Source: Ricordea florida (taxonomy: Eukaryota > Cnidaria > Anthozoa > Corallimorpharia > Ricordeidae). From it: DNA of 64,000 nt. The notes under the pieces were generated by a model. That model had not been told where the DNA came from. It made no database searches and saw nothing but the letters and a program-made list of their open reading frames with translations. Position numbers and translations under genes: made by a program. Of this stretch, positions 31,143 through 62,116 are shown piece after piece. Location of the stretch: NCBI GenBank assembly GCA_949710005.1, contig OX453277.1, forward strand, positions 6,257,024 through 6,321,023, given 5' to 3'. How positions within the stretch are numbered: position 1 is the stretch's first letter; each line of letters begins with the position of its first letter.

Positions 31143-34100
31143 GTTGGCTACTTTTTCATATGAGATTATTGTATGGTGGTACTTAAAATATCTATAATTC
31201 TCATAATTGTTTGTGAATGTTGTGCTGAAGCAGGTTGTCTTTTGATGGAGAACATGTTTCGTGTCAAGCATTGCATTCATTTGTGTTAACACTTTTACGA
31301 GGAGTTCCTTGGTTTCTTTTCATTTGAAAAAAGCTTTGTAAGATTGAAGTTTTATTGCAAACATGATTATTATATGAATAAACCTAGATCTTGAGTATCC
31401 TTCTGGAAAAATCTCCTAGAAGAAGTAAATATTTCCTTTCCCAGTCAAAAAACATGCAGTAAACCTCTAAAGCAACCAGTTAACCCATTGACGTCCAATG
31501 CGCCCTCGTGCACCCGGAAATATAATCCCTCTGAAAATCCAGTGCGCCCTCATGCGCCTTGTCAGATGTTGCCTACTTTGATTGGCTGTAGCTAAGAAAC
31601 TATACTCCCCCGAGAACTAAAATGCAGTGAAACGTGACATGCATAAATTTAGCTTTCATTTGAGACCAAACACGCGAGAATACGTTCTGTTTACGATTTT
31701 TCACGAATTTTTGAAAACAGCAGTTTAAATCTGAACATCGCTTCTGGTGGAGTTGACGAATTTTCAGGTTCATCCAATAAAAAAGAAGATTTCTTCGCCG
31801 ATTTTACAGTCGAAGAAATCAGTCAAATGAGGCAGAATCGTCGAAGACGGCGAGAGCAAGAATCACTTCAGCAGTGGATGAAGAGATTATAACGCTCTCA
31901 TCGACCAACAACCTCAGGAAAGCGCAAGTAATTCCGACGTTAAGGTTTTTGCTGATGAAGAAAGCGGCGAAAGCAGCGATGAAGAAACTGTTAGCAACGC
32001 AGATTCCGAGGACGCATCGCTAAATCAACTTCGGTGGTCAAATACATTGAGTGAAATCAATGTAGAAGAGTTCTCTGTTCGCTGCGGCCCATCCAGAAAT
32101 CTCGACAGCCAAAGATTTCTTCAATCTTTATATCAACAACGAATTCCTTGATGAAATCATCCGGCACAGCATTGCCTATGCTCGTCGAAAGGGCGATGCA
32201 ACGTGCGTAACCAATCGAGTGGAAATTTCAGCATATCTTAGCCTCAATATTTTAATTGGAATCCACGAACTTCCACAGCTGGAAATTTACTGGGATTCTG
32301 ATGAATTTATTGGACTTTCGGGCTTCAAAAAACCATTCCTAAGCAGCGTTTTAAAAATCTGGGATAGTACTTCCATCTTGCCGACCCAAATACCGAGGAC
32401 CGAGCAGATCTGCTTTGCAAAGTTCGGCCGCTTGTTACTGTATTAGAACGGAGCTTTTCCGAAGCCTACACACCCGGCAAAAACATCACTGTGGACAAGG
32501 GGCTTGTGAAGTTCAACGGTAGACTGTCTTTCAAGCATTATATGCACATGAAAGCGCACGGAAGGCCAACGCCGAACCTTCGAAACATCGTACGCATGTG
32601 AACAGTGTGGTGTTCCTTTGTGTCGCCAAATGCGGGGTGAAAGGTCTTGCTTTGCTGGATGGCACGGCTAAACTTTGTAGAAATGAAGAGACAGAACTTT
32701 TCCTTTGTTGTATATATCCTTTCTCTTTTTATTACAATGCAGTCTCGTCGTAGAAATGATTCCAGGCTCGCTGCGTAGGGCTTCGCTTGTTGACCATTGT
32801 TCGTAGATGAACACAACAGATTTACTTCATTGTTTAGTTACATTTATTGTTTATAATCAGAATTGATGTATTCTCCATTCATTTTGGAACTAAAATTGAA
32901 GCATTATATCAAGTTTGTTGGTCTTGAGTCGCAAATAAATGTTAGTGGTTGCGTCTTATGACGTATCGTGATGTCGCAGTGGCGGGGAAATTCAAAATTG
33001 AATCACGCTCAAAAGCTGAAGATTTATTTCTTCCTGGCTAGACGACCCGTTCCAAATTCAACTAGGATTTCATAACTGCCTTTTTACGCAACATACTGAA
33101 TAAAATTAGGGTATAATGTGTGTTGTTCTATTTTAAATTTCTCGGAAAGCTGATGGGCACTGTACATAACTATGCAAAGGATGCCCTGCTGAATGGATTT
33201 GCCAAGTTTCATATTTTTTTTAAGAAAGCGTCTTGCACTTCTGTAAGATAAAAGTTGATTTAGTAAATCTTTATTATATAAATAGGATTTCTGTGAATTT
33301 TTACAGCAGAAGGACAAAGGGAACTCATTAAAATCTTGAAATGTTTTTACACTGGTGTGTGAGTTCACTCAAGTGGCCATTTTGTCTGGATTTTGAGAGG
33401 GTGGTCTGGGCTCAGGGTCTTGGATGTCAATGGGTTAATATTGATATTGTTTACCCTTAGTTGTAGCTAACATTCCTTGCTTGCTACAACCAATGATCAA
33501 GTTAAGCCACTTGTTCAGGGAAAAAAAAACAGTAACATCACCAGGGTTCAAACCTTGGTCCTCCTAATCACAAGTCTATTGTCCCTCCACAATTTTGTTT
33601 GCTCACAGTGGTGATAAATATATTTCAAACAGGATATGGATGATGCCTTCTACATTGTAGACTTGGCTGATGTTCTCCTCAAGCACAAGAAGTGGGTTTC
33701 ATTGCTACCAAGAGTAGAACCATTTTATGGTAAGCAACCAGTTCTCACCCTGCAATTTCTGCAAGGTCAATAATTTTTTCCCAGTATTTTTTTCAAAGAA
33801 AATGCTGTGTTGGTTGGTTTATTGTTTTATCGTAGGTTTAAATTATACTTCCTTTGTTCCAAACTCATTATGATACATTACCATACCAAAAAACAAAGGA
33901 AAATAAAATTAAAACCAGGGAAAAATCTTAACGACAATCTAGATACTGTTTACAGTGGTTTTTCATTCCTTTACAGCAATGAAGTGCAACAATGATCCAG
34001 TTATCTTGCAGCTATTGTCAGGATTAGGAATCGGATTTGATTGTGCGAGCAAGGTATTAACATTTTTCAAGACTCTTTTCTTTCTCTACAATTATTTGAC

Positions 34101-35596: not shown

Positions 35597-38500
35597 GACA
35601 TTTGCATATGGTTAGACTTTCTAGTCTTCTCGGATAAGGACGATAAACCGTAGGTCCCATCTCACAACCCTTGTTCATGCTAACTTAGTGGGACATTAAA
35701 GAACCCACATGCACCTTTCCCCCTTCTACAGAATTGTCCAAGAAAAAATGAGTATGAATGTTCATTTTGCGCGTAGGTAGTATTTGATTTTAGTATTTGC
35801 TTCACTTGTGCTTTGTTTTCATTTGTTGAACTATCAATGTTTTTTACCACCAAACCAATTGTTAAATTGGGGGTGTGGCCTATACGCGGGAAAATATGGT
35901 AGTTTTGTTAGATTATGTGTAAACTACTATGCCTGCCACATATGATGCCAACACAATATTACTTTGGTCTGCAACACATTTTTTGTAGAATGTTAATGTT
36001 TCTTTTCTGATTGTTAGGTTGAAATACAAACCATGTTGGATGTGGGTGTACCTCCATCTAAGATTGTGTATGCCAATCCTTGCAAGCAGGCTTCTCACAT
36101 CAGGTTTGTTGAATTCATCTGTTTTGTTTGGCCTGAGACAAGTCTGTTTTTTGGACACATGCATGGTCAAATTATTATCATTATTATTATACCATGCCTA
36201 AAATAGGAGGCCATTTTCTAAATTTTTTTCTTAGTACTGATGATTTCAGTACTAAGAGAAAAATAACAATAGACTGTAATACGTTCAGGATACAAATTGG
36301 TCTTACAAAGATGACAACCATTTTCTTATCATGTTTAGTACCATTGGTCTCTTAACTATGCATTTGCTAAGGGAATAAACAAGAGCGTACGAGCTCGTCT
36401 GTGCGTTAGTACTAGCGTACTAACGTACCAAGGGAATGAATAAGAACGTACGAGCTCATCTGTCCTTAGTACTAGCGTACTAACGTACTAAGGGAATGAA
36501 TAAGAACGTACAAGCTCGTCTGTCCTTAGTACTAGCGTACTAACCTACTAAGGGAATGAATAAGAACCTACGAGCTTATCTGTCCTTAGTACTAGCGTAC
36601 TAACGTACTAAGGGAATGAATAACAACGTACGAGCTTGTCTGTGCGTTAGTACTAGCGTACTAACGTATTAAGGGAATGAATCACAACGTACATGCTCGT
36701 CTGTGCGTTAGTACTAGCGTACTAACGTACCAAGGGAATGAATAAGAACGTACGAGCTCATCTGTCCTTAGTACTAGCGTACTAACGTACTAAGGGAATG
36801 AATAAGAACGTACAAGCTCGTCTGTCCTTAGTACTAGCGTACTAACCTACTAAGGGAATAAATAAGAACCTACGAGCTTATCTGTCCTTAGTACTAGCGT
36901 ACTAACGTACTAAGGGAATGAATAACAACGTACGAGCTTGTCTGTGCGTTAGTACTAGCGTACTAACGTACTAAGGGAATGAATCACAACGTACATGCTC
37001 GTCTGTGCGTTAGTACTAGCGTACTAACGTACTAAGAGAATAAATAAGAACGTACAAGCTCATCTGTCCTTAGTACTAGCGTACTAGCGTACTAACGTAC
37101 TAAGGGAATGAATAAGAACGTACGAGCTCATCTGTCCTTAGTACTAGCGTACTAACGTACTAAGGGAATAAATAAGAACGTACAAGCTCATCTGTCCTTA
37201 GTACTAGCGTACTAACGTACTAAGGGAATGAATATGAACCTACAAGCTCATCTGTCCTTAGTACTAGCGTACTAACGTACTAAGGGAATAAATAAGAACG
37301 TACAAGCTCATCTGTCCTTAGTACTAGCGTACTAACGTACTAAGGGAATGAATAAGAACCTACAAGTTAATCTGTCCTTAGTACTAGCGTAGTAACGTAC
37401 TAAGGGAATAAATAAGAACGTACAAGCTCGTCTGTCATTAGTACTAGCGTACTAACGTACTAAGGGAATGAATAACAACGTACGAGCTTGTCTGTGCGTT
37501 AGTACTAGCGTACTAACGTACTAACGTACTAAGGGAATGATAACAACGTACGTGCTCGTGTGTGCGTTAGTACTAGCGTACTAACGTACTAAGAGAATAA
37601 ATAAGAACGTACAAGCTCATCTGTCCTTAGTACTAGCGTACTAACGTACTAAGGGAATAAATAAGAACCTACGAGCTCATCTGTCCTTAGTACTAGCGTA
37701 CTAACGTACTAAGGGAATAAATAAGAACCTACAAGTTAATCTGTCCTTAGTACTAGCGTAGTAACGTACTAAGGGAATAAATAAGAACGTACAAGCTCGT
37801 CTGTCATTAGTACTAGCGTACTAACGTACTAAGGGAATGAATAACAACGTACGAGCTTGTCTGTGCGTTAGTACTAGCGTACTAACGTACTAACGTACTA
37901 AGGGAATGATAACAACGTACGTGCTCGTGTGTGCGTTAGTACTAGCGTACTAACGTACTAAGAGAATAAATAAGAACGTACAAGCTCATCTGTCCTTAGT
38001 ACTAGCGTACTAACGTACTAAGGGAATAAATAAGAACCTACGAGCTCATCTGTCCTTAGTACTAGCGTACTAACGTACTAAGGGAATAAATAAGAACGTA
38101 CCGTGAAGCTCAACTGTCCTTACTACTAGCGTACTAACGTACTAAGGGAATGAATAAGAACGTACAAGCTCGTCTGTCCTTAGTACTAGCGTACTAACGT
38201 ACTAAGGGAAGGAATAAGAACCTACGAGCTTATCTGTCCTTAGTACTAGCGTACTAACGTACTAAGGGAATGAATAACAACGTACGAGCTTGTCTGTGCG
38301 TTAGTACTAGCGTACTAACGTACTAACGTACTAAGGGAATGAATAACAACGTACGTGCTCGTCTGTGCGTTAGTACTAGCGTACTAACGTACTAAGAGAA
38401 TAAAGAAGAACGTACAAGCTCATCTGTCTTTAGTACTAGCGTACTAACGTACTAAGGGAATAAATAAGAACCTACGAGCTCATCTATCCTTAGTACTAGC

Positions 38501-41500
38501 GTACTAACGTACTAAGGGAATAAATAAGAACCTACGAGCTCATCTGTCCTTAGTACTAGCGTACTAGCGTACTAACGTACTAAGAGAATAAATAAGAACG
38601 TACAAGCTCATCTGTCCTTAGTACTAGCGTACTAACGTACTAAGGGAATAAATAAGAACCTACGAGCTCATCTGTCCTTAGTACTAGCGTTCTAACGTAC
38701 TAAGGGAATAAATAAGAAGGTACAAGCTCATCTGTCCTTAGTACTAGCGTACTAGCGTACTAACGTACTACGGGAATGAATAAGAACCTACGAGCTTGTC
38801 TTTGCGTTAGTACTAGCGTACTAACGTACTAAGGGAATGAATAACAACGTACGAGCTTGTCTTTGCGTTAGTACTAGCGTACTAACGTACTAAGGGAATG
38901 AATAACAACGTACGTGCTCGTCTGTGCGTTAGTACTAGCGTAATAACGTACTAAGAGAATAAATAAGAACGTACAAGCTCATCTTTCCTTAGTACTAGCG
39001 TACTAACGTACTAAGGGAATAAATAAGAACCTACGAGCTCACCTGTCCTTAGTACTAGCGCACTAACGTACTAAGTGAATAAATAAGAGCCTACGAGCTC
39101 ATCTGTCCTTAGTACTAGCGTACTAACGTACTAAGGGAATAAATAAGAACGTACAAGCTCATCTGTCCTTAGTACTAGCGTACTAGCGTACTAACGTACT
39201 AAGAGAATAAATAAGAACGTACAAGCTCATCTGTCCTTAGTACTAGCGTACTAACGTACTAAGGGAATGAATAACAACGTACGAGCTTGTCTGTGCGTTA
39301 GTACTAGCGTACTAACGTACTAACGTACTAAGGGAATGATAACAACGTACGTGCTCGTGTGTGCGTTAGTACTAGCGTACTAACGTACTAAGAGAATAAA
39401 TAAGAACGTACAAGCTCATCTGTCCTTAGTACTAGCGTACTAACGTACTAAGGGAATAAATAAGAACCTACGAGCTCATCTGTCCTTAGTACTAGCGTAC
39501 TAACGTACTAAGGGAATAAATAAGAACGTACCGTGAAGCTCAACTGTCCTTACTACTAGCGTACTAACGTACTAAGGGAATGAATAAGAACGTACAAGCT
39601 CGTCTGTCCTTAGTACTAGCGTACTAACGTACTAAGGGAAGGAATAAGAACCTACGAGCTTATCTGTCCTTAGTACTAGCGTACTAACGTACTAAGGGAA
39701 TGAATAACAACGTACGAGCTTGTCTGTGCGTTAGTACTAGCGTACTAACGTACTAACGTACTAAGGGAATGAATAACAACGTACGTGCTCGTCTGTGCGT
39801 TAGTACTAGCGTACTAACGTACTAAGAGAATAAAGAAGAACGTACAAGCTCATCTGTCTTTAGTACTAGCGTACTAACGTACTAAGGGAATAAATAAGAA
39901 CCTACGAGCTCATCTATCCTTAGTACTAGCGTACTAACGTACTAAGGGAATAAATAAGAACCTACGAGCTCATCTGTCCTTAGTACTAGCGTACTAGCGT
40001 ACTAACGTACTAAGAGAATAAATAAGAACGTACAAGCTCATCTGTCCTTAGTACTAGCGTACTAACGTACTAAGGGAATAAATAAGAACCTACGAGCTCA
40101 TCTGTCCTTAGTACTAGCGTTCTAACGTACTAAGGGAATAAATAAGAAGGTACAAGCTCATCTGTCCTTAGTACTAGCGTACTAGCGTACTAACGTACTA
40201 CGGGAATGAATAAGAACCTACGAGCTTGTCTTTGCGTTAGTACTAGCGTACTAACGTACTAAGGGAATGAATAACAACGTACGAGCTTGTCTTTGCGTTA
40301 GTACTAGCGTACTAACGTACTAAGGGAATGAATAACAACGTACGTGCTCGTCTGTGCGTTAGTACTAGCGTAATAACGTACTAAGAGAATAAATAAGAAC
40401 GTACAAGCTCATCTTTCCTTAGTACTAGCGTACTAACGTACTAAGGGAATAAATAAGAACCTACGAGCTCACCTGTCCTTAGTACTAGCGCACTAACGTA
40501 CTAAGTGAATAAATAAGAGCCTACGAGCTCATCTGTCCTTAGTACTAGCGTACTAACGTACTAAGGGAATAAATAAGAACGTACAAGCTCATCTGTCCTT
40601 AGTACTAGCGTACTAGCGTACTAACGTACTAAGAGAATAAATAAGAACGTACAAGCTCATCTGTCCTTAGTACTAGCGTACTAACGTACTAAGGGAATGA
40701 ATAACAACGTACGAGCTTGTCTGTGCGTTAGTACTAGCGTACTAACGTACTAACGTACTAAGGGAATGATAACAACGTACGTGCTCGTGTGTGCGTTAGT
40801 ACTAGCGTACTAACGTACTAAGAGAATAAATAAGAACGTACAAGCTCATCTGTCCTTAGTACTAGCGTACTAACGTACTAAGGGAATAAATAAGAACCTA
40901 CGAGCTCATCTGTCCTTAGTACTAGCGTACTAACGTACTAAGGGAATAAATAAGAACGTACCGTGAAGCTCAACTGTCCTTACTACTAGCGTACTAACGT
41001 ACTAAGGGAATGAATAAGAACGTACAAGCTCGTCTGTCCTTAGTACTAGCGTACTAACGTACTAAGGGAAGGAATAAGAACCTACGAGCTTATCTGTCCT
41101 TAGTACTAGCGTACTAACGTACTAAGGGAATGAATAACAACGTACGAGCTTGTCTGTGCGTTAGTACTAGCGTACTAACGTACTAACGTACTAAGGGAAT
41201 GAATAACAACGTACGTGCTCGTCTGTGCGTTAGTACTAGCGTACTAACGTACTAAGAGAATAAAGAAGAACGTACAAGCTCATCTGTCTTTAGTACTAGC
41301 GTACTAACGTACTAAGGGAATAAATAAGAACCTACGAGCTCATCTATCCTTAGTACTAGCGTACTAACGTACTAAGGGAATAAATAAGAACCTACGAGCT
41401 CATCTGTCCTTAGTACTAGCGTACTAGCGTACTAACGTACTAAGAGAATAAATAAGAACGTACAAGCTCATCTGTCCTTAGTACTAGCGTACTAACGTAC

Positions 41501-44500
41501 TAAGGGAATAAATAAGAACCTACGAGCTCACCTGTCCTTAGTACTAGCGCACTAACGTACTAAGTGAATAAATAAGAGCCTACGAGCTCATCTGTCCTTA
41601 GTACTAGCGTACTAACGTACTAAGGGAATAAATAAGAACGTACAAGCTCATCTGTCCTTAGTACTAGCGTACTAGCGTACTAACGTACTAAGAGAATAAA
41701 TAAGAACGTACAAGCTCATCTGTCCTTAGTACTAGCGTACTAACGTACTAAGGGAATAAATAAGAACCTACGAGCTCATCTGTCCTTAGTACTAGCGTTC
41801 TAACGTACTAAGGGAATAAATAAGAAGGTACAAGCTCATCTGTCCTTAGTACTAGCGTACTAGCGTACTAACGTACTACGGGAATGAATAAGAACCTACG
41901 AGCTTGTCTTTGCGTTAGTACTAGCGTACTAACGTACTAAGGGAATGAATAACAACGTAGGAGCTTGTCTTTGCGTTAGTGCTAGCGTACTAACGTACTA
42001 AGGGAATGAATAACAACGTACGTGCTCGTCTGTGCGTTAGTACTAGCGTAATAACGTACTAAGAGAATAAATAAGAACGTACAAGCTCATCTTTCCTTAG
42101 TACTAGCGTACTAACGTACTAAGGGAATAAATAAGAACCTACGAGCTCACCTGTCCTTAGTACTAGCGCACTAACGTACTAAGTGAATAAATAAGAGCCT
42201 ACGAGCTCATCTGTCCTTAGTACTAGCGTACTAACGTACTAAGGGAATAAATAAGAACGTACAAGCTCATCTGTCCTTAGTACTAGCGTACTAACCTACT
42301 AAGAAAATGATTAAGAACCTACAAGCTCATCTGTCCTTAGTACTAGCGTACTAACGTACTAAGGGAATAGATAAGAACGTACAAGCTCGTCTGTCCTTGG
42401 TACTAGCGTACTAACGTACTAAGGGAATAAATAAGAACCTACGAGCTTATCTGTCCTTAGTACTAGCGTACTAACGTACTACGGGAATGAATAACAACGT
42501 ACGAGCTTGTCTGTGCGTTAATACTAGCGTACTAACGTACTAAGGGAATGAATAACAACTTACTAGCTCATCTGTCCTTATTCTTCAAAGATGGCGTCTG
42601 GGTTTGTCATCATGGGCTGCAGCTATGTATCTGTAGGAGAAGGCGGCTGCTCTAAATTGATGTCGTACGGGGGGCGGAGAGCAAAGTTGATGCGGGAATG
42701 CTTCTGGGCCTTCAGCTTTGCAAGCATGGACTGCTGTTCTACCGCGGGAAGCCCCCCAGCGTAATTCTTGAAGATAGACTTGATATCTTTCCAGGAGGGG
42801 GTATAGAACAGAACAACGGCCGTAACGTTCTCCCGGAACAGCTTTGCGATACTAGTAAACTGCTGTGTCAGCAGCCAGACGCTTATTCCTATGTGGCGGG
42901 CGCTTAAGGCCAGATTTATCAGTTGGTTGGAGCATTTCTTCTCGTCTTTCGACGGGGCGCAATCGTCCAGAATGAAGAGACAGTTGGTTCCCTCGAACAG
43001 TGCACTCAGCCAGCGTAGAAGCCTATCCACTGTGTCGTCTTCCAGCGGGGGGACGCAGACGAAGAAGCATTTGTCGCCTTCTGCGAAGTCTTCGTAAGTC
43101 TTGTTGTGTGTGTAGGTGGGGCAAACCAAAACAACGTAGTCGAACGCACCCCGGAATGGCCCGAGAAGCTGTTCGACCACGTACCTCGTTTTCCCACAGT
43201 TTGTTGGACCCACTATAAGCGTGTTGAATTGAATTTTCTCTGGATCCATCCTCAATATTGGATAGAGTCGAGCTGTCCATTCAAAAGGTCTAACTGAGCA
43301 TCGGCGATGACGAACACGTGGCAGTTCAGATTTCCAGACTCCCCGGTGGCCCGTCGGATCTCGAGCTGCACTCCATCCTTGCTGTTCACAAGACGCAGGC
43401 CGGCCCCGTGGAGAGTTGTGTCGTCTGTGGACCGCAAGTCGACGAATAGCCTAAACTTGTTTTCTGTGTGGAATCGCATGGCATCCACGTCGCTGATTTC
43501 GTTTTCATCTTGGACGAAGTGCCGAGCCGCCTCCTCCTACAAATCCCTTCCCAGGAGGCCCTGGCTGTAGACCTTATTGGGCATCCCCTCGACCGCCACT
43601 CTGACCGAGGATATCCCCGGGCTGACGAACTTTTCGGAGTCTCGTACCCCTGCAGCATAGTGCTCGACGAACAGGAACAAAAGCCCCTTCATAGAGTGGC
43701 GAGGCACGTCGACCGTCTCGTTGACTATGGAGTCGGCCTCCCTGCTCACTGTCAAGGTCTTGTGGAGGGTCTCGTGGTCGTAGAAGAACATCTTCCTCCC
43801 ACAGTAGCTGTTTGCGGTTTCCCTTGCGAGGTCTGCATTACGGACAGCCTCGTACTCCAGCTCGAGGTTGCGTGGCCGGCGGGGGCCAGCTTTATCTCGA
43901 AGGTGAGGGATTCAGCCAGGGCCCTAAGGTAGAAGGCCCCATGGTCCCGCAAGATCTCATGATCCAGCGGAATGCGGTATTTTGAGCGTGAACACGCCCT
44001 TCAAGGCGTTCTCGGGCTTGTTGTCGGTTTTGGCGTCTTTTGTCCCAGACCGTAGCTTCCCGAGGTTCACCGACTGTATGCCTTCGAGAATCCTGTTCTG
44101 CCGCTCTTTCGACGTCAGAAAAAGGTCAGAGAATAGGGCATAGAGGTCGAACCTGTTGGTGTTCTGGATAACCTCCCCTGCGAACTTGAAGGTCATAGGT
44201 TATAGCTCTTTTGAACGTATGTTCAAAACGGATTCATACCAACATGGAGGAAGAGGACCCTATAGAGCCTGGGCGCGAAGACCCAACACCAAATGATGAC
44301 GATGACGAGCGTCGACCTTTGCTCAACGACCCACGGGGTGAGGAGGGCGGCGCTGAAAACATCCCAATGGAAGAGCGTGGTGCGCGACGCAGGACGACTA
44401 CTTCGGTCGATTACAGAGAAAGAGACGGATCCATAGAAGAGACCTCGTTCTTAGAAGACCCGCGAGAAGGAACCTCTGTGGCAGAGATCTTCCGGGAAAG

Positions 44501-47500
44501 TGCCAGGCAAGAGTTCCCAAGTTCCCCAGAGCCAGCCCATTGGTTCAAGCCTCTTATGAGGATGGACGACTCAAGGTTAATTTCTTCGGGAAGGCAACGA
44601 AATACCCGCTCTTCACTGAAAACAGGAAGACTGGAGAACAAAGGCTCCATCCTAATCTCCCCAAGGAAATCAAGAATAGTCTGGATCCTGCTGAGACTAT
44701 TGGGCGGAATAACCAGGAGATTAGCGACCTGAATCGGAGTATAGCAGAAAATGAGCGAGCGCGCATGCAAGGGTACAGGAGAACACCGCGCGCCTCGAAG
44801 AGCTCCGAGAGGGAACAGGAGAGGCTAGAGGAGGGCCTTCCACTGCGCGAACGGCTTCGGGAGCGCCTCAAAGCCATCTTCCGGAAGTACGGGTTCACTC
44901 TGACAGTCGTCGCGCTCGCCGTGGGCACAACGATTGGGGTTGTCATAAGTTCTCTCACCAAAGGACTAAAGTCTGTCTCCGCTGGAGTAGGGAAGGACCT
45001 CCAGGAACTAGGCAAAAAAGTAGCCTCGATCCTGCCAGGCCTCCTCGGCTCAATAGCGAGCTTCGTGTTCAGAGCCGCCGGGGAAGCCGTAAAATTTCTT
45101 GGCAAAAATGCGTGGCTCCTCATTGTCGCTGTGGCCGCGTATTTGATCGACCGCACGACGAAGAGGTCTTCAAAGTAGATACCTCGAGGCGACAAGGCCA
45201 CCCAATGCCGCCACGGTTATTACGGCTATTTTCTGTGCTTCATGGCTGCTGGTCGACGCGAAGGGTTGGGGCGAGGTCGGCGGTGTAGAGGTTGAGGTGG
45301 CCGCGGATCGGTTTGTTTTTGGGCTTGGAGCCGGAGCGGTTGTTGGCGTGCCGATTGGTCGGTGCGTTTTCGGGCTCGGGCCCTCCATGTCGTGCACGCC
45401 CACCTTCTTGGATTCGAGGTTGACATCCGTGTTAACTCCAAGTCGCATCCCGTCGCTGGCGCGCTGAAGCGCGTTGTTATACCCATGAACGCATTCGGTG
45501 TTCAAGACCATCCGTGCCGGTAACAACCATGCGCCTGGGCTGATCGCGAGGTTGAGTCGCACTTTTGCTTCATCCACCGCTTAACTGATACCGCTGTACG
45601 CTTTTGCTGATATCCGGCAGAACAATGCACTCTTCGACGTGCTGCAGGAACTCTTGCTGTGCCTCGACCGCTGAGCCGGAATTACAGAGAATCGACGAAC
45701 GGACATCCACCTGGGAACCTAGGATGCTGTAAACATAGGACTCGGTAGAATGGTTAATCCTCGCCTGGCCAGATTTGGTAAGCCCAGGGCAAGCAGGAGG
45801 GATGAAGTAGTCCCATTGCCCCGTGTTAGGGTGTAGGACTATTTTTCCATCCCAGTACGTGAAGTCGCTGCTGGGGGGTATTCCAAATTCTCGGCACAGC
45901 CGCTCATACGTGGCTTCGACTAAACGGTTATTTGTTCGCGACACACTGTCGGGCCACCCGAGCTCAAAGAGTACTCGTCGCACAGTGAAATAAGTGTGGA
46001 CCCGGAATAGACTGACCACTATCGGCGGCAGATCGAGTCTGGCGTCCGGTTGGAGAACTAGATACGACATCATCGCACCAGACCGCGAAGTTGAGCTGAT
46101 TACACCAATAGTGCATTCTGTTGATGTGCTGCTTTTCTGCCGCCCGGAAGATGTCTCGAAACTCTACTGCGAACCACTCCGAAGGCGTGAAGTAGATAAG
46201 CTGCCTAACAAGGAGGTCTTTCAGCGCTGGCACAGTTGAATCAAAATCACGGGGCGGGACTCGGAGCCTAGGAGCCGGGTTGAACTGGAGCTTGATAGGA
46301 AAACCGGGGTTGTGGTTTTTTCGGGCAACCTCTGCGGGTGTATCGGCAGCGTTTGCCTTGCTTGAAGTATTCCCGATCGGGATAAGACCATAAAGACTCC
46401 CCGACGACATTTCAAGGTACGGTCGTCCAACTGAACAATAGCACACATCCCCCTATGATCCGTTGTCTCAAAATGGTGGTGCTCGTAGTTGATGCCCCCT
46501 CTAGTAGCCACACGGTCTACTTCGACAAGCCGCTCGTGGCCCCGCGATTCATATCCCTCATCTTGTGCACGCTCTACACCTCGTGGCACAATTTGAAAAG
46601 TCCGGGGACCGTTGCGTTCAAGAAGGATAGAAGTGGCATCGTGGCGCGGATTTGGAGCCTGGCCACTACACACCCTATTCTCTGGCAGGGGCTTTGCAAG
46701 AATCTTTCGTGTTCGAAAATCGCGCGCTTGCCCGCTATTATCCGCCATCGGGCGGTTTCTCGATCGAAAAAACAGAGAACGCCGACTCCTTGTGAATCAA
46801 TCAAGAACTCGCAGACCTCTTAGGCACGAAAGACAAAGAGATAACCAACATCTCCGTTCTACGTTTAAACACGCCCAGCACCTATTTCATCTATTGCGAC
46901 CACCTTGACCCGGAGCAAACGCTGTGCAACGGGAAGCCGTCGTTCCTCTTGGCTCTGTTGGAGAAGAAAGGAAGGCCTTACGAAAAAGTCACTTTCACCC
47001 AAGTAGGAGGGGAGTGTGCGGTAAGCCAAGCGTGTAAGCAATCGCAACATATTCACTCAATGACTCTGATCGTCAAATACGAACACGACGTCTTGCTCGA
47101 TTTCCGTTCCCTGCCCTTACGTTTCGTATTGGAGATTTCACCATAGCAAGGAAACGATGGACATGCAACCTAGCGCTCCGCCCCTATACCCCAGAATAGG
47201 GAACGATGCTAAGGTCTTCCGGCTGCAGCACGTGAACGAAATCGCGAATGAGCTCCGTGGGGCAATCGAGAGGAGCGAAAATATCCGTGGGCAAATAAAA
47301 AAAAGCCGTTATCGGCCTTCCGAACATGTCGATGGTCTCAGGATCATTCGCGGCTGTCTTAGGAGCCTCGGCGACCGCCACTTCGATGACAGGCATCGGG
47401 GTAATGGCCGGGATACCCCTCGCGACCGTCGCAGCCGTGCTTGGGGTAACCAGTGTAACGACAGCTGCTATCCGGTTACGGCTGCAACGCAAGCTCGAGA

Positions 47501-50500: not shown

Positions 50501-53500
50501 AGATGAGCTCGTACGTTCTTATTTATTCCCTTAGTACGTTAGTACGCTAATACTAAGTACAGATGAGCTCGTACGTTCTTATTCATTTTCTTAGTACGTT
50601 AGTACGCTAGTACTAAGGACAGATGAGCTCGTACGTTCTTATTCCCGTAGTAAGTTAGTACGCTAGTACTAAGGACAGATGAGCTCGTGCGTTCTTATTC
50701 ATTGCCTTATTACGTTAGTACGCTAGTACTAAGGACAGATGAGCTTGTACGTTCTTATTCATTCTCTTAGTACGTTAGTACGCTAGTACTACGGACAGAT
50801 GAGCTCGTACGTTCTTATTCATTTCCTTAGTACGTTAGTACGCTAGTACTAAGGACAGATTAGCTCGTGCGTTCTTATTCATTCCCTTAGTACGTTAGTA
50901 CGCTAGTACTAAGGACAGATGAGCTTGTACGTTCTTATTCATTCCCTTAGTACGTTAGTACGCTAGTACTACGGACAGATGAGCTCGTACGTTCTTATTC
51001 ATTAGTAGGTTAGTACGCTAGTACTAAGGACAGACGAGCTCGTACGTTCTTATTCATTCCCTTAGTACGTTAGTACGCTAGTACTAAGAACAGATGAGCT
51101 CGTACGTTCTTATTTATTCCCTTAGTACGTTAGTACGCTAGTACTAAGAACAGATGAGCTCGTATGTTCTTATTTATTCCCTTAGTACGTTAGTACGCTA
51201 GTACTAAGTACAGATGAGCTTGTACGTTCTTATTCATTTTCTTAGTACGTTAGTACGCTAGTACGCTAGTACTAAGGACAGATGAGCTTTTACGTTCTTA
51301 TTCATTCCCTTAGTACGTTAGTACGCTAGTACTAAGGACAGATGAGCTTGTACGTTCTTATTTATTCCCTTAGTACGTTAGTACGCTAGTACTAGGGACA
51401 GATGAGCTTGTACGTTCTTATTCATTCCCTTAGTATGTTAGTACGCTAGTACTAAGGACAGATAAGCTCGTACGTTCTTATTCATTTCCTTAGTACGTTA
51501 GTACGCTAGTACTAAGGACAGACGAGCTCGTACGTTGTTATTCATTCTCTTAGTACGTTAGTACGCTAGTACTAAGGACAGACGAGCTCGTACGTTCTTA
51601 TTCATTCCCTTAGTACGTTAGTACGCTAGTACTAAGGACAGACGAGCTCGTACGTTGTTATTCATTCCCTTAGTACGTTAGCAGAATCCTCGGTAATACT
51701 GGGGATACGGGTTAGTACTGTAGTACCAATGACTAAGAGAAAAAAGTAAGCAAAAGGTTCCTAAAAGAGGCAGCATATGATTATTATTGTCATCATCAAT
51801 ATCATGATTTCTTTTACCATTATCATTGTCATCATCATCATTGTCATTATCATCATCATCATCCTAGAAAAATTGCTTTTTTTCACTTGCAGAACTTAAG
51901 CTCTTCATCTACCTTGAAGGGAGGGGGTCGTAATGCATGACTTAAGATCCCATAGGGTCTTTTCAACTTTCATGTACTATTCTTGATATTGTAGTTGTTT
52001 TAAGCAAACATGTCTTATCACTATCATCATTTATAATTAACAATTATTCGCCGAAGGTGAAGTGATTATCCGTGAATATTCACCAAGACTTCGTCTCAGT
52101 GAATATTCACCGATAATCACTTCACCTTCGGCGAATAATTGTTTAAGTATAAATACGCAGGTGATTATTTCAAAAAAAGAAAAGAAAAAGCATTGTACAA
52201 CACAAAACAACTTTATTTCATCAAAAGCACGCGAACGGCTAGCAGCCATTTTGTTCGCTGAGGTGATTATCGGCTGATAATCCGAGATAGCGAACCAATC
52301 AGAGTGCGTGATTTTGTATAATCACCTGAGTATTTATACTTATTATTATTATAAGTAACAGTTTGTCCGTTTGTGAGTCAAATCTGTAGCTTTTCTGAGG
52401 TCGGTCTCCTTTTTTCAGGTTCTCAGCTGAGCATGGTATTTCACTGATGACGTTTGACAATGAATTGGAGCTTCATAAAATAAGGGAGTTGTACCCCTCT
52501 GCTAGGTAAGTTTGGAAACATGCGTCAGTCATTAGAATTTGATGCATTTGTTCTATTGTTTCAGTGGCTTAGAGCTCACTGGATGATATGCAATTAATTG
52601 TCTGGTCATGCATATTACAGTCCAGCAGGGTTTTGCTGCAAATTGATATTCTGCGTGTGTGCAGTTATACCCCCACCTTTGAGAAAATATAAGAATGGTA
52701 GATTGCCTCCCTGATCTTTCAGAGAGCAAAATCAAAACCGTAATTGATTGCAGACAGAGTGATAACACCAAAAAAGCAACAAAGATAGCCCTTACGTGTA
52801 GTGTACTTAAAGACCACCTGAATCAAAGAAAGATAGACAAGGACTGCCTTCTCGTCATTAAAAGATGAGTTGGTAGCTGTTCTGAGAACTTTTTTTTTTG
52901 AGGAAGCCAGAAGAAAGGATGGTGAACTTAACACAAAAACTTTGCTTGTCGGAATACGCTTTATGTAAGGATTGCAGACAAAATATCACAACAAATGATA
53001 AAACAATTATTGAACTTGGTGATGACAAAATATTTTGATTTGTCAGTGGCAAGCAGATCAATTATTTTCCAAAGCTGAAGGAGAAGGCAACAAATCGCAA
53101 TATTTTGCTTAACCTTGTCCAATATTTAATTATTTGCAGCCTATTATATTGATTCTTGCAATGCTCCATAGATCATGGTATTTGGATCAAAGAATTGTAT
53201 GCATAATTTTTTGCAGGTTGCTTCTTCGCATACGTACTGATGATTCCAAGTCTTTGTGCCAGGTTGGTGAGCTTTTTTATGCTGTTCATTTTTATTGCAT
53301 GGATAAGGACTTAGGAATGCTTCATTACTGCAATTGGTATTATTAGAATGTGGTTTGGATAAGCAATTTTTCAGCAATCTGTTCTTGGCTTACTTAGAAC
53401 TGCCAATATTCTGTTGTGCATTTTGTGTGAGGTTAACATGACTTGATAGGAAGTTGAAAAATTGTAAGACCTTTGGTATAATGATCTACTGTGCAAAGAT

Positions 53501-59908: not shown

Positions 59909-62116
59909 GGGCCGCAGGCGAGTGTTTCCACAGCTTTTTCGAGTTCTCCCAAACTTTTACGAGTGTTTCTATAACTCGATAGAGACACGAAGAACATGTT
60001 TTCTATTTCTTTTAGAGAACACCACGACGAAAAAAGAAAAACAACTTGTTAACTTTGATTTTCAAAATGTAAATTCTCTTTGCTCGCGTCATCATTACGT
60101 CAACAGCTCGTGCAAGTTCTGTGTTTCTATCGAGTTACAGAAACACGAATTCTAACCAATCAGCGGGCGTATTTTCTTAGGACTGTTTTCTAAATCATGA
60201 CAGAACCTTGCATAAACTGTTTGATTTTGTTTCCCTGTTTTTGAGCTAACAGGTTTTCTGTAAATCATTGTTTCTGTCATGAATTTAGTGTTAGTTGTAA
60301 TGCTACAAATTACTCATTGTGTAAGTGTTGTATAGCTGTACTGTACTATTTAATATTTCAGTGATGTGACTATAATCAAGTATTGTGGGATAGTTTCTAA
60401 AGAAACTGGTGCTGCATCGGTGGGAAATTGAAACACAAGAAATTGGGTAAATCAAACGAGTTGATTAAGTAAGTTATACCACAGTGAGGTAAAAAGGAGG
60501 TGCTGACGTTTCGAGCGTTAGCCCTTCGTTGAGCATTAGCCCTTCGCTCCAACGAAGGGCTAACGCTCGAAACGTCAGCACCTCCTTTTTACCTTACCGT
60601 GGTATAACTTACTTAATCAACTCGTTTGATTTACCCATTTTCTTGTATAATCAAGTATGTTGTATTGAAGTATTGTTTATTTATGTCTAGGTGGATGTTG
60701 GTGATTGGTTGTTCTTCAGGAACATGGGTGCATACACCCATTCAGCAGCCTCTACATTTAATGGTTTTCATAAGCCATTGAAGTATTACACTGTCACCGA
60801 GAGCTGGTGGTGAGTTGATCCAATGTACTTGTAGTGAATTACAGCTGTTCTCTGTTTACTGCCCAAAGTATTATTTTTCTGATAAAGGAGTTACTCTCTT
60901 AAGAAACTGGCGTGGTGTTGGTGGGAAAGTGAAACACACAAATTGGTTTTCAAATAAGTTAATAAAGCAAGTTTTACCACTGTAATATTTAATGGTTTTG
61001 ATGTTCTGAGCATTAGGTTTTGTTAGACCCCTTTGCTCTCATGTCTTTTGGTTTGCATCACTGTATTGCACTCTAGGGCATTGGCTGAAGAACCTTGTGT
61101 CTCTCGGCCAATCCGAAGTAAAACTTCAATCAGTCAAAGCTGAAAACAGTTTTGACAAGGTTGCAAGTGTTCCCTGTGTCATGTGCTGAGGACATTTTTT
61201 TAAATTTGTGTTCCATTTGTTAATTGGACTGTGTGCATTTATTGTAACGATTTCTTTGGTTTTAGTCTTGAAACAATCACTTTAACTTAATCTAAGGTAA
61301 TTTGATTCGAATCAAATGGCCACTATCACTTGGGAAGTGTTCTCATGAAGCTACTTGAACATTGTGAAGTAGTATTACACTGCGACTACTCAAACTAAGG
61401 CACAAAACATAAATTTTCACACCAATTTTGGATGCCTGTTTTTCACGCTAAACCGCAGATTTATGGCGAGTTTCTACCGACTATGATGATTTTTCTTTCT
61501 TGATATGCTTTGTACAGTCACTAGATTACAGTAAGTTACATGCATTTTAAGTGAAATATAAAACATTTGTAGAGATTCTATTGTTTGGGTACTTGATGGT
61601 GAGAGGATAATTTATATGATGTTTGGGTGGCTGCGGTTTGAGTAGTTGTACTGTAATGGCTAACGGCTCCAAGTGGTTTAGAGTAACCAGTATTTTTAGC
61701 TTGCAGCAGTCACCTTATAATGCTGTTGCACTATCAGTATAACCATATTAACCATATAATGCTGTTGCACTATCAGCATAACCACGTGGCCCTTAAAACG
61801 TACATATATGCAGACTGTACTCTTCATACACCTCTAAGCTTATTTATCCATGGTTGCATAACATTTTTGCCAATGACTTCAGCTTTTGCTAGCCATCTAC
61901 TTGTTTTTTTCTCTCCTCTACTTGTACTCCACTAAGCATAACACTTTGTAACAACGATCTGTTGATTTTTTATGCTATTTCAGGCCAACGCTTAATAAAG
62001 TTTTGGAGAAGATTGGGCTGTCTGGGCATCTGCGTTGTAATGTGTCTTCAGCTGACCAGAAAAATGCCCTGTATCCTGGCACGGAATGCGTACAGATTCT
62101 TTCCTCTGCCTTGTGA
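31041..62116 (+). CDS. ODC1: Ornithine decarboxylase, 13 coding exons
   Basis: PLP-dependent decarboxylase converting ornithine to putrescine, the first step of polyamine synthesis in the cytosol; active as a dimer. Thirteen exons join in phase to 463 residues (human enzyme 461): 31041-31142, 33633-33729, 33977-34053, 36018-36103, 52419-52505, 53217-53262, 53716-53804, 54550-54631, 56549-56632, 57936-58142, 59238-59420, 60691-60809, 61984-62116. Visible key residues: Lys69 (PLP Schiff base), His197 and Ser200 in FHVGSGC, Gly235-237 in GGGFPG, Glu274-Arg277 in EPGR, Tyr323, Cys366-Asp367 in WGPTCD, Tyr395. Catalytic numbering matches the human protein up to Tyr323, then shifts by six. Intron 4 is about 16.3 kb because it holds the satellite-flanked virus-like element. 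The C-terminus differs from the vertebrate degradation tail. The gene appears intact. An antizyme-inhibitor-like paralogue is less likely because the catalytic residues are present. Confidence 0.95.
31480..33438 (+). mobile_element. piggyBac element in ODC intron 1
   Basis: TTAA at 31480-31483 and TTAA at 33435-33438 flank inverted ends CCCATTGACGTCCAA (left) and CCCATTGACATCCAA (right, complement). The body is about 1.95 kb and encodes a decayed piggyBac-type transposase. TTAA target duplication plus CCC-starting inverted repeats is the hallmark of this superfamily. Confidence 0.88.
31731..32610 (+). pseudogene. Decayed piggyBac-type transposase
   Basis: Fragments of a DDE_Tnp_1_7 (piggyBac) transposase in shifting frames. 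An acidic/basic N-terminal region (about 31731-31890) ends in a stop. An acidic GESSDEE segment follows. A catalytic-domain part (about 32130-32600) includes [20 protein letters not shown], then, in another frame, [14 protein letters not shown] and KFNGRLSF. Multiple frameshifts and an absent C-terminus mean it cannot make active enzyme. Confidence 0.8.
33633..33729 (+). CDS. ODC1: ODC exon 2
   Basis: Residues 35-66 ([20 protein letters not shown]...PFY), acceptor TTTCAAACAG, donor TATG|GTAAGC splitting the Ala67 codon. Confidence 0.93.
33977..34053 (+). CDS. ODC1: ODC exon 3 (PLP lysine)
   Basis: Completes Ala67 and encodes 68-92, including Lys69 of MKCN, which binds PLP, and GFDCASK. Confidence 0.95.
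35490..35720 (+). mobile_element. tRNA-derived SINE in ODC intron 3
   Basis: Head CAACCAGTTAGCTCAGTTAC (A box) and GCGGGTTCAAACCCTCGGCT (B box), with part of the anticodon region deleted. The body has GGAGAAAGTGCTGCCTTTGT, TTCTCGGATAAGGACGATAA and GTGGGACATTAAAGAACCCA. I recall this body as a conserved coral-type SINE core. Confidence 0.72.
36018..36103 (+). CDS. ODC1: ODC exon 4
   Basis: Residues 93-120 plus two bases of Arg121 ([20 protein letters not shown]). Its donor (CAG|GTTTGT) opens the 16.3-kb intron that holds the virus-like element. Confidence 0.95.
36367..42580. repeat. Left satellite array, 60-bp units, about 100 copies
   Basis: Each unit contains TTAGTACTAGCGTACTAACG, then AAGGGAATGAATAAGAACGT and CAAGCTCATCTGTCC-like sequence. 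CCTTAGTAC and GTACTAAGG form a perfect 9-base dyad within each unit. Some units gain or lose CGTACTAA or GTACTAGC modules. A higher-order repeat of 1430 bases is visible: the private variant CCGTGAAGCTCAACTGTCC recurs at 38101, 39531 and 40961, with other private variants in step. Recent segmental duplication is implied. Confidence 0.92.
42623..43249 (-). CDS. Packaging ATPase (A32/FtsK-HerA-like)
   Basis: Intact 208-residue P-loop ATPase of the type that pumps DNA into capsids in Polintons, adintoviruses and NCLDV relatives. Walker A GPTNCGKT is at 14-21, Walker B LFILDDC at 91-97. [15 protein letters not shown] (117-131) is the conserved sensor/arginine region of A32-like ATPases. The C-terminus is Pro-rich. 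I take ATG at 43249, because the codon opening the longer frame is TTG. It lies three bases after the stop of the capsid-like gene upstream on the same strand, so the two are arranged as an operon-like pair. It is the only clearly undamaged gene of the cassette. Confidence 0.85.
   Translation of the reverse strand: MDPEKIQFNTLIVGPTNCGKTRYVVEQLLGPFRGAFDYVVLVCPTYTHNKTYEDFAEGDKCFFVCVPPLEDDTVDRLLRWLSALFEGTNCLFILDDCAPSKDEKKCSNQLINLALSARHIGISVWLLTQQFTSIAKLFRENVTAVVLFYTPSWKDIKSIFKNYAGGLPAVEQQSMLAKLKAQKHSRINFALRPPYDINLEQPPSPTDT
43252..44196 (-). pseudogene. Capsid-like protein, disrupted
   Basis: Starts at ATG 44196 and ends at TGA 43252, about 310 codons if unbroken, directly upstream of the ATPase, the usual place for a major capsid gene in this virus realm. 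The coding sense moves from one frame (44196-43957) to another (about 43952-43870) and back (from about 43860). A TAG then interrupts at about 43537 before the last segment, which ends at 43252. Segments have beta-rich character ([41 protein letters not shown]). A double-jelly-roll capsid is my best guess from context and recalled resemblance; no structural test was possible. Broken by two frameshifts and one nonsense codon. Confidence 0.55.
44244..45178 (+). pseudogene. Membrane protein with coiled coil, one frameshift
   Basis: ATG at 44244 follows the divergently transcribed capsid-like gene by about 50 bases, a likely bidirectional promoter. The first part is very acidic ([16 protein letters not shown]). 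The frame shifts near 44535-44545, and the second part runs to TAG/TAA-bounded 45178. The second part has a charged, coiled-coil-like region ([20 protein letters not shown]), a hydrophobic helix ([14 protein letters not shown]), a Gly-rich amphipathic stretch ([14 protein letters not shown]) and a last hydrophobic helix ([13 protein letters not shown]) before a basic end. I recall this C-terminal layout from recurrent uncharacterised cnidarian proteins. Probably a virion membrane protein or an entry/assembly factor; function unknown. Confidence 0.6.
45170..45577 (-). CDS. Small membrane-anchored protein, start codon uncertain
   Basis: A 135-codon open frame beginning with GTG at 45577, two codons after an in-frame stop; the first in-frame ATG is about 20 codons later. 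It overlaps the 3' end of the preceding gene by eight bases and the 3' end of the opposite-strand gene by nine. The middle is Pro/Thr/Ser-rich ([16 protein letters not shown]) and the C-terminus is one hydrophobic helix ([19 protein letters not shown]). The GTG may be a mutated ATG. No family recognised. Confidence 0.45.
   Translation of the reverse strand: MDEAKVRLNLAISPGAWLLPARMVLNTECVHGYNNALQRASDGMRLGVNTDVNLESKKVGVHDMEGPSPKTHRPIGTPTTAPAPSPKTNRSAATSTSTPPTSPQPFASTSSHEAQKIAVITVAALGGLVASRYLL
45570..46410 (-). pseudogene. Virus-like cassette gene, one frameshift, unknown function
   Basis: ATG at 46410 ([13 protein letters not shown]...) and TGA at 45570. The N-terminal half contains [20 protein letters not shown] and [20 protein letters not shown] and stays open to about 46060. 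There the sense moves to a second frame that carries the C-terminal half ([17 protein letters not shown]...). The two open frames overlap across about 45964-46073, so one short indel explains the break. The divergent gene at 46455 starts 45 bases away. I recognise it only as resembling recurrent uncharacterised cnidarian proteins. A structural or minor capsid role is a guess. Confidence 0.5.
46455..47146 (+). pseudogene. Virus-like cassette gene, frameshift and stop; possible minor capsid protein
   Basis: ATG at 46455 (or 46473) opens a segment with [19 protein letters not shown]. Sense then moves to another frame near 46620-46670. In that frame a TGA at 46793-46795 interrupts before the better-preserved C-terminal part, which has [20 protein letters not shown] and [11 protein letters not shown] and ends at 47146. 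The alternating hydrophobic pattern suggests a beta-rich fold, so a penton or minor capsid (single jelly-roll) protein is plausible. It is followed after 10 bases by the next plus-strand gene. Confidence 0.5.
47157..47834 (+). pseudogene. Late-domain-bearing membrane-associated protein, broken
   Basis: ATG at 47157. Within the first ten codons is PSAPPLY, which overlaps a PSAP (Tsg101-type) and a PPLY (PPxY, Nedd4-type) late-domain motif. A charged helix follows ([20 protein letters not shown]). Sense then shifts frame near 47320 into a Gly/Ala/Val-rich hydrophobic segment (MSGSF... to [13 protein letters not shown]) and returns near 47500 to a helical C-terminus. A TAA at 47613-47615 interrupts DDDNQMV before [13 protein letters not shown], which continues in the same frame to 47834. 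The same recurrent-cnidarian-protein impression applies. Function unknown; an assembly or budding role is inference from the motif only. Confidence 0.5.
47855..48015. repeat. Three diverged ~65-bp repeats at the cassette edge
   Basis: GTTCGAAAATGTTTCCGAAA then TATGCGTGTACG; GGAAAATGTTTAAAAATTATG then TGTGTACG; GTTTGAAAATTTTCCGAATT then ATGCGTGTCCG. This is unlike the 60-bp satellite that follows and may be a terminator or structural element of the cassette. Confidence 0.55.
48081..51683. repeat. Right satellite array, inverted relative to the left, about 60 copies
   Basis: Same 60-bp unit read on the opposite strand (CCCTTAGTACGTTAGTACGC, TAGTACTAAGGACAGATGAG, CTCGTACGTTCTTATTCATT). Some units lack ATTCATT-type bases and are about 54 long. 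A private variant (CTAAGTTAGATGATCTCGTA) recurs 543 bases apart (49891 and 50434), so this side has its own higher-order structure. The first units (48081-48250) are the most diverged. Confidence 0.92.
48430..48500 (+). mobile_element. Retroposon 3'-tail insertion inside the right array
   Basis: One satellite unit is interrupted by GTAAGAGCATTGAGA...GCGCTAGAAATAAATTATTATTATTATT, typical of the 3' end of a 5'-truncated SINE or LINE. TATTC-like bases occur on both sides. Confidence 0.55.
51684..52040. other. Distal part of ODC intron 4
   Basis: Holds a CAT/ATT-rich low-complexity tract (about 51778-51866) and no gene. CTAAGAGAAAAA near 51738 also occurs outside the left array (36252). Confidence 0.45.
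52041..52341. mobile_element. Hairpin MITE in ODC intron 4
   Basis: Arms 52041-52083 and 52100-52142 (CAATTATTCGCCGAAGGTGA and complement) form a near-perfect palindrome. Next to it, TAAGTATAAATACGCAGGTG and CACCTGAGTATTTATACTTA (52144-52341) form terminal inverted repeats around about 150 bases. Confidence 0.7.
52419..52505 (+). CDS. ODC1: ODC exon 5
   Basis: Completes Arg121 and encodes 122-149 plus part of Arg150 ([20 protein letters not shown]). Acceptor TTTTTTCAG, donor AG|GTAAGT. Confidence 0.95.
53217..53262 (+). CDS. ODC1: ODC exon 6
   Basis: Residues 150-165 ([15 protein letters not shown]). A 46-base micro-exon with donor CAG|GTTGGT, chosen over GTGAGC four bases downstream because only it keeps CQ-LGIKYG in frame. 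Confidence 0.92.
53716..53804 (+). CDS. ODC1: ODC exon 7
   Basis: Residues 166-194 plus part of Ser195 ([20 protein letters not shown]...VVGV). Acceptor TATACAG, donor AAG|GTGTGT. Confidence 0.95.
54550..54631 (+). CDS. ODC1: ODC exon 8 (His197, Ser200)
   Basis: [17 protein letters not shown]: His197 stacks on the PLP ring and Ser200 contacts its phosphate in characterised ODCs. Donor GCT|GTAAGT. Confidence 0.96.
54789..54839. repeat. (CA)n followed by A-rich tract
   Basis: ACACACACA run with one TAC interruption, then A-rich sequence with single G breaks; in ODC intron 8. Confidence 0.9.
55353..55410. repeat. (AT)n tract inside the deleted piggyBac
   Basis: TATATA runs broken by TTA. It lies exactly where the transposase frame is lost and so may mark the deletion junction. 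Confidence 0.85.
55411..55941 (-). pseudogene. piggyBac transposase N-terminal fragment
   Basis: ATG at 55941 starts an acidic N-terminus ([20 protein letters not shown]), typical of piggyBac transposases. Further pieces in other frames hold [37 protein letters not shown] and [16 protein letters not shown]. At least one frameshift lies near 55680-55730, and the catalytic aspartates are beyond the truncation at the AT tract. Confidence 0.8.
56549..56632 (+). CDS. ODC1: ODC exon 9 (glycine loop)
   Basis: Residues 223-250 ([20 protein letters not shown]...FEE). GGGFPG binds the PLP phosphate. Confidence 0.96.
56835..57115. mobile_element. Hairpin MITE in ODC intron 9
   Basis: Arms at about 56963-57025 and 57050-57105 (CCGTACTGTAAAATACGGAT; ATCCGTATTTTACAGTATGG). 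GATTTATGG/AATAAATCG lies toward the centre, with an AGCGCGAAGCGCGC core. Confidence 0.7.
57739..57803. repeat. (ATT)n microsatellite
   Basis: About 20 ATT units in ODC intron 9. Confidence 0.95.
57936..58142 (+). CDS. ODC1: ODC exon 10
   Basis: Residues 251-319, largest exon. Contains [20 protein letters not shown] with Glu274 and Arg277, then the variable charged loop. Confidence 0.96.
58627..59161. mobile_element. MITE in ODC intron 10 with AAGATG direct repeats
   Basis: Ends CAGTGTTGTATCCAG and CTGGATGCAACACTG are inverted, with one mismatch. AAGATG flanks both sides (58621-58626, 59162-59167). GGGGGTCC words occur near both ends. Possibly hAT-like, although only six flanking bases match. 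Confidence 0.7.
59238..59420 (+). CDS. ODC1: ODC exon 11 (Cys366/Asp367)
   Basis: Residues 320-380: [20 protein letters not shown] with Tyr323, and [12 protein letters not shown] with the cross-subunit active-site Cys/Asp pair. Confidence 0.96.
59750..59818. repeat. (TGTA)n microsatellite
   Basis: TATGTATGTATTGTATG repeats of ODC intron 11. Confidence 0.85.
59821..60180. mobile_element. Fold-back MITE with TTTCTATCGAGTTATAGAAA arms
   Basis: Arms 59821-59892 and 59938-60014 share AGAAATAGAAAACATGT, GTGTTTCTATCGAGTTATAG and GTTTGGGAGAAC. A third partial copy of the end lies at 60115-60180. Confidence 0.72.
60384..60645 (+). mobile_element. Hairpin element, full copy with 13-bp target duplication
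   Basis: TATAATCAAGTAT flanks both ends (60371-60383, 60646-60658). Head TGTGGGATAGTTTCTAAAGA, then GGTGGGAAATTGAAACACAA, then a large hairpin whose arms include AACGAGTTGATTAAGTAAGT and GAGGTGCTGACGTTTCGAGC. Reverse-oriented relative to the 1985-2169 copy. Confidence 0.8.
60691..60809 (+). CDS. ODC1: ODC exon 12
   Basis: Residues 381-419 plus two bases of Trp420: [20 protein letters not shown] with Tyr395, then [16 protein letters not shown]. Donor TG|GTGAGT. Confidence 0.96.
60888..61017 (+). mobile_element. Diverged hairpin-element fragment in ODC intron 12
   Basis: CTTAAGAAACTGGCGTGGTG, GGTGGGAAAGTGAAACACAC and AAGCAAGTTTTACCACTGTA follow the family order; only one arm is kept. Confidence 0.55.
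61984..62116 (+). CDS. ODC1: ODC exon 13 (last coding exon)
   Basis: Completes Trp420 and encodes 421-463 ([18 protein letters not shown] ... ILSSAL), stop TGA at 62114-62116. Confidence 0.9.

Follow-up and report, generated by a model that had tools for sequence, protein, structure and literature searches.

Results

The window, i.e., the whole stretch of 64,000 nucleotides of Ricordea florida DNA analysed here, carries an ornithine decarboxylase (ODC) gene on its plus strand, and this gene contains a large repeat-bounded element. The exons were placed by matching to an approximate ODC query, which gave plus-strand matches at 33627-33728, 33970-34056 and 36018-36110 on the 5' side of the element and, on its 3' side, a weak match at 53212-53286 (E 0.035) and six further matches from 53713 to 60810; the motif of a likely small ODC exon is found at 52453, also 3' of the element. 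G+C content is 0.52-0.56 in the five 1-kb bins of 43001-48000, which lie between two satellite arrays, and 0.34-0.45 in the remaining 1-kb bins of the window, with mixed content in the bin 42001-43000 (0.447).

Both arrays are built of the same 60-bp satellite. The left array (36367..42580, plus strand) comprises about 100 copies with 87% matches and has a higher-order period of 1430 bp; the right array (48096..51681, minus strand) comprises 60 reverse-complemented copies with 89% matches, and inverted pairs between the two extend up to 454 nt at 94%. These coordinates and pairs bear out the first-pass annotation of the sequence, which had described one satellite flanking a gene cassette in opposite orientations. 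Outside the arrays lie two non-satellite ends, recognised by homology to other copies in the genome. Terminus A (36188..36366, plus strand) is 179 bp long, reads inward as TATACCATGCC and shares 99% identity with the right-hand end of a copy on C7 (L021). Terminus B (51682..51779, minus strand) is 98 bp long and reads inward as CATATGCTGCC; its identity to the ends of four other copies, each 167 bp, is 90-93%. Homology between the two termini spans roughly 68 bp in an alignment read by eye, and the ends of the element are of the type TATACC/CATATG. Among seven aligned ends, the flanks beyond the ends are unrelated. In the window the element is bordered by ATTATTAT as left and right target site duplications, at 36180..36187, inside an ATT microsatellite, and at 51780..51787. 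Because homology among copies extends beyond the arrays, we place the limits of the element at 36188-51779. The span first proposed, 36367..51683, thus enclosed a real cassette and real arrays within a larger element. Similarly, the suggestion that the satellite is, or grew from, a terminal inverted repeat (TIR) stands in that the satellite belongs to the element, though its arrays are not terminal; judged from these alignments, 36188-51779 is the mobile element and the arrays are the subterminal parts of its long TIR.

The cassette between the arrays contains the ATPase and capsid-type genes initially noted there, the former confirmed by a Pfam match and the latter as a remnant. The A32-type packaging ATPase is an open reading frame free of stops at 42623..43450 on the minus strand (Pox_A32, E 4e-10). 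The remnant of a double jelly-roll major capsid protein lies at 43255..44196 on the same strand and has 65% identity to the capsid protein of the related viral copy L028; its first 88 residues are unmatched, it contains four stops, and its assignment to the double jelly-roll class rests on the fold of the homologue P0001. By tblastn to L028 and L040 genes, an acidic protein with a hydrophobic C terminus was matched in two frames at 44256..45166 (plus strand), and by tblastn to genes g1-g3 of L028 a virion-module gene was found in pieces at 45314..46341 (minus strand), with 252 of 430 candidates related to L028 g2. A remnant of the gene named "up" in L028 follows at 46470..47140 (plus strand, tblastn), and sequence matching placed a remnant of the outermost L033/L028 gene on that side at 47184..47756 (plus strand). 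In PHROGs, the ATPase had a single terminase match (3.3e-4) and the seven remaining queries returned no informative hit; neither the capsid protein of L028 nor the ORF of L040 had a match in PDB sequence searches, and an IMG/VR scan for capsid relatives gave 37 pattern matches, none of them confirmed. One capsid relative, at 53%, comes from Oculina patagonica. Separately, one Adintovirus protein appeared among the fold matches, as a fold match and not as a phylogenetic placement. A Pfam scan of the ten ORFs of the window cassette detected no transposase.

In the 538-Mb genome, the one genome examined, the ATPase has at least 142 matches, a lower bound, since scoring covered 140 of the 4908 first-look candidates. 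Fifteen ATPase loci, including the window, are at least 83% identical. We read 12 of these (the window included), the 11 others spanning nine contigs; at the remaining three (C2:30703719, C6:1360590 and C13:12543486) the ends were located, and at the latter two the sequence flanking them was read. The pairing of ATPase gene and inverted satellite that had been proposed from the window recurs elsewhere, as inverted 60-bp arrays are present in all 11 of the other close copies read (of 14). No such array was found at nine more distant ATPase loci (L028 and L033-L040). End A has 30 matches in the genome, 21 of which cover at least 168 of its 179 bases at 88% or more, and end B has 32, among which several are lone ends (83-86%). 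At 13 loci both are present as a pair separated by 9.05-15.6 kb, with end A partial in the C5 copy. At one locus, C2:30701188, an A end is present on both sides. On C4, a lone B end (C4:23683844) and a lone, truncated A end (C4:23814283) lie about 130 kb apart and may mark the two sides of an inversion. The junction of cassette and array on the ATPase side of the window recurs in all 11 of the other copies and the far-side junction in 10 of the 11.

The capsid gene is broken in all 12 cassettes read. Searches of these cassettes by tblastn (1e-3) detected no integrase with the integrases of L033, L034, L035 and L040, no Polinton polymerase ORF with the corresponding ORFs of L034, L035 and L040, and no helicase ORF with that of L033. 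The three polymerase queries are ORFs that we take to be protein-primed DNA polymerase B; Pfam and PDB searches of them returned no polymerase match. An integrase domain was scored for L033 and L035, in the latter just below the Pfam cut-off. Loci L034-L040 resemble large Polintons with capsid genes. For the ATPase, dN/dS was 0.75-1.34 in 21 pairs between the window's subgroup (three loci) and seven other family loci, and 0.22-0.31 in 10 pairs between family loci and the viral L028 copy; these values come from 10 of the 15 family loci, in pairs that share branches and are not independent. Evolution of the ATPase within the family is about neutral.

Among the 12 copies with both flanks read, eight have exact 8-bp target duplications, seven established by comparison of the flanks and the eighth (on C2; L054/L046) read directly from the sequence as TCTTCCTT on both sides. 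Two further copies match at six of the eight positions, and two lack a duplication. As a control, 132 mismatched left/right pairs contained none matching at seven or eight positions and one at six, so the two copies with six matching positions prove little. No exact duplications of other lengths (4 to 12) occurred, except one at 5. The window's own duplication, ATTATTAT, falls within a microsatellite and, taken alone, is weak evidence. The integrase-bearing relative L033/L049, read by eye, has a G-run end and the 6-bp duplication CACATA, with one base within the run.

The orientation of the cassette differs between copies. Of the 12 loci that have two ends and at which the ATPase was scored, 10 have the ATPase edge of the cassette facing end B, and the window and the C7 copy have it facing end A; in the third member of their subgroup (C6:22663465), B lies on the far side and the other end reads N. 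The cassette is therefore flipped relative to the ends in the window's subgroup. Recombination between the inverted arrays would be the simplest cause of such an inversion.

A 28-mer of the satellite occurs exactly 197 times in the genome (85 + 112), with no occurrence of the reversed control, and the places listed (100 of the 197, on contigs C2-C4) all coincide with loci bearing an A or a B end. This speaks for the early view of the satellite as a component of the element. The two arms of the window share one exact unit variant, whereas arms on the same side of related copies share more (seven between the window's left and the L021 right array, six between the window's right and the L021 left array), in a comparison that took in only parts of other arrays (for C7, the parts in L021). 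Within a copy, the arms are thus not homogenised with each other, and, because unit variants are common to same-side arms of related copies, the arrays travel with the element.

The same ends also exist apart from viral genes. Locus L062 contains a complete 236-bp MITE with the ends CATATGCTGCC and GGCATGGTGTA, which it has in common with the cassette element, and with the 8-bp duplication TCTTCACA on both sides and no cassette. The 60-bp unit aligns to this MITE with scores of 32 and 33 on the two strands versus 26 and 27 for the best shuffles, and none of 500 shuffles matched as well on either strand. As the MITE is complete and virus-free, the ends and a seed of the satellite exist without viral genes. 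It is the only complete small element among the three lone-end loci read (L062-L064); the other two run into unrelated sequence, which in L064 continues into what is presumably a pogo-type remnant. L064 bears a 60-bp unit and gave no match to L028, L033 or L049. None of the three loci yielded a transposase alongside these ends, such as would be predicted for Mutator, hAT, P or another superfamily that makes 8-bp duplications. The A-end locus on C10 was considered as an autonomous partner and rejected; its ORF resembles, we presume, a pogo-type transposase over the C-terminal part of that protein. In L065, which lies 3 kb further on, no ORF is longer than 109 aa.

Discussion

Our findings point to a mobile element in which viral genes are cargo. 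We consider it likely that this is a non-autonomous foldback transposon whose TIRs have grown by satellite amplification, which captured the virion module of a Polinton one time and has spread it as a passenger, and that it is not a provirus. A transposase supplied in trans would cut and paste the ends (TATACCATGCC... and ...GGCAGCATATG), making the 8-bp duplications observed at the copies. A 60-bp inner part of the TIR may have been amplified to inverted kilobase arrays, by unequal exchange or slippage, and the loop between the arms would have taken up, once, that half of a Polinton-like element (L028/L033 lineage) which bears the virion genes. The junctions that the copies have in common argue for a single capture, which could have occurred during gap repair. 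The composite would then have transposed to the at least 13 loci at which paired ends are found, one of them in the ODC intron, and the viral genes would have decayed as passengers. Recombination between the inverted arrays could flip the cassette, giving the observed difference in orientation.

The first-pass annotation had proposed a provirus in an intron of the ODC gene; exon matches on both sides uphold the intron, and the duplications and ends speak against the provirus. Mavericks are described with an integrase, a polymerase, 6-bp duplications and AGT or AG ends (PMC8097293, PMC4028283), none of which we found here, where the duplications are of 8 bp. Three observations led us to reject a provirus with satellite TIRs as the principal interpretation: the duplications of 8 bp, the virus-free MITE with the same ends, and the lack of a detectable integrase or polymerase. 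In an adapted form of that view, a lineage of Polinton-like proviruses would have had its own TIRs turn into satellite, lost integrase and polymerase, and been moved by helper Polintons. The genes are indeed of Polinton type, and the TIRs of the related L028 hold 2.5-2.9 copies of a 56-bp unit (one copy in L033); nevertheless, the ends are, by eye, unlike the G-run end and CACATA duplication of L033, and L064, with its 60-bp unit, matched none of L028, L033 and L049. We regard such a lineage as quite unlikely. A founder that was itself a working fusion is comparably improbable; it would have been, like Teratorn on a reduced scale, a Polinton-like virion module that had lost integrase and polymerase, settled in the genome by means of foldback ends and a cut-and-paste transposase, depended on helper Polintons to replicate and had the arrays as a cassette-flipping switch, with the copies of today its decayed descendants.

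Alternatively, a Polinton may have used its own integrase to enter a foldback or satellite element that was already there, and been cut down by deletion, the composite moving later as a single unit, a course of events distinguished from the capture favored above solely by the route of cassette uptake. The far edge of the cassette (47756-48095) is the side that adjoins the viral TIR in the gene order of L028/L033, which favors this course, but Blast of both cassette edges against the window, L025, L028, L029, L033 and L049 matched other copies and the ATPase end of L028 and revealed no viral TIR, and we hold the scenario to be decidedly unlikely. Spread as satellite DNA or by segmental duplication, or an assembly artefact, each dispensing with transposition, is extremely improbable, for although arrays are hard to assemble and copy L022 runs into N, the exact duplications and precise ends recur on many contigs and the satellite 28-mer is confined, in the 100 places listed, to these elements.

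Among known systems, the architecture matches that of Tetris of Drosophila virilis in having ends in common with a MITE, tandem repeats within the TIRs and duplications of 8-10 bp. Tetris and the MITE DAIBAM are described as non-autonomous with the final portions of their TIRs in common (PMC4079207), as are the ends of the cassette element and L062, and tandem repeats inside the homologous inverted ends, related in Tetris to kilobase satellite-like arrays (PMC4079207), are present here also. Its duplications are given as 8-9 bp in complete and 9-10 bp in rearranged copies (PMC4079207), compared to 8 bp here (exact in eight of 12). The Tetris account differs in a unit of about 220 bp rather than 60 bp, in no apparent protein-coding capacity, where the present element has a viral gene module, and in repeats that also form satellite arrays outside the element (PMC4079207). 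Galileo, of the P superfamily in Drosophila, is likewise described with long TIRs containing tandem repeats, unequal arms and chimeric copies without matching duplications; unlike here, the reported duplications are of 7 bp, some copies code for a transposase, and tandem units are few, with TIRs near 1.26 kb holding three repeats (PMC3573991). The cassette itself, with its double jelly-roll capsid protein and A32-type ATPase, has the gene content reported for Polinton/Maverick elements (PMC8097293, PMC4028283), which we take as its source. Virus genes between DNA transposon ends are also described in Teratorn, the piggyBac-herpesvirus fusion of medaka, which keeps transposition activity and intact herpesvirus genes (PMC5601938), in contrast to the decayed module here, in whose ten window ORFs Pfam detected no transposase gene. 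Tlr1 of Tetrahymena is likewise a mobile element with genes for a capsid protein and an ATPase, and has an integrase and helicase (PMC4642659), neither of which was found in the satellite family. L033/L049, with an integrase and a helicase-like ORF, is closer to Tlr1 than the satellite family is. The TIRs of Tlr1 contain tandem repeats. A link between satellites and Polintons has been noted before, since a published table labels CgiSat52, a satellite of the oyster, as DNA/Polinton (PMC8268682). Among the literature matches listed, with most subscription papers outside the scope of the search, there was no capsid-carrying foldback element or satellite-TIR Polinton in Cnidaria.

In summary, a 236-bp MITE tied by the same ends to kilobase inverted arrays would provide a direct case of satellite growth within a mobile element, and a cassette flipped between inverted arrays makes array recombination testable. 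As the foldback is several kilobases long and lies in an ODC intron, its influence on the transcript would be worth testing. If our interpretation is correct, a double jelly-roll capsid and packaging module has been spread by an unrelated cut-and-paste transposon, and capsid genes scattered through a genome need not signal viral integrations.

Results and discussion

ATPases of the A32 class found in Polintons are common throughout the 538-Mb Ricordea florida genome, with at least 142 matches, a lower bound since 140 of the 4908 first-look candidates were scored; many of these matches lie in open frames. One Polinton relative lacking the 60-bp arrays (L033:632 to L049:4249) carries an integrase, recognized by an rve match (2.7e-9), and its minus strand holds pieces of open reading frame with a weak AAA_30 match that falls below the cut-off. 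This relative resembles Tlr1 in gene content.

Within the satellite family, in which inverted 60-bp arrays surround a viral capsid and ATPase cassette, the left array of the copy in the ODC intron (window 36367-42580) has a 1430-bp higher-order period superimposed on the 60-bp unit. A palindromic insert interrupts the right array of the copy on contig C5 (L026:8387-9202); beyond it come a second ATPase-end piece and another array. The copy at C2:30701188-30711359 has the non-satellite terminus A at both sides, with a partial match to the other terminus, B, immediately outside, and is perhaps a recombinant.

Upstream of the ODC exons lies a transposase fragment of the DDE_Tnp_1_7 family (window 32066-32446; E 1.8e-9), which we take to be of piggyBac type, and also upstream of ODC are C2H2 zinc-finger coding pieces (window 23780-25556), presumably of the KLF/SP kind. 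An interspersed repeat at window 58624-59161 is shared with the flank of the satellite-family copy L032 on contig C13 (87% over 560 columns).

A second Polinton relative without the 60-bp arrays, L028, has long terminal inverted repeats (TIRs) containing 2.5-2.9 copies of a 56-bp unit (L028:584-767 and 8599-8759), and a single copy of this unit is present in L033. The 56-bp unit of L028 and L033 is perhaps a second instance of unit growth within TIRs.
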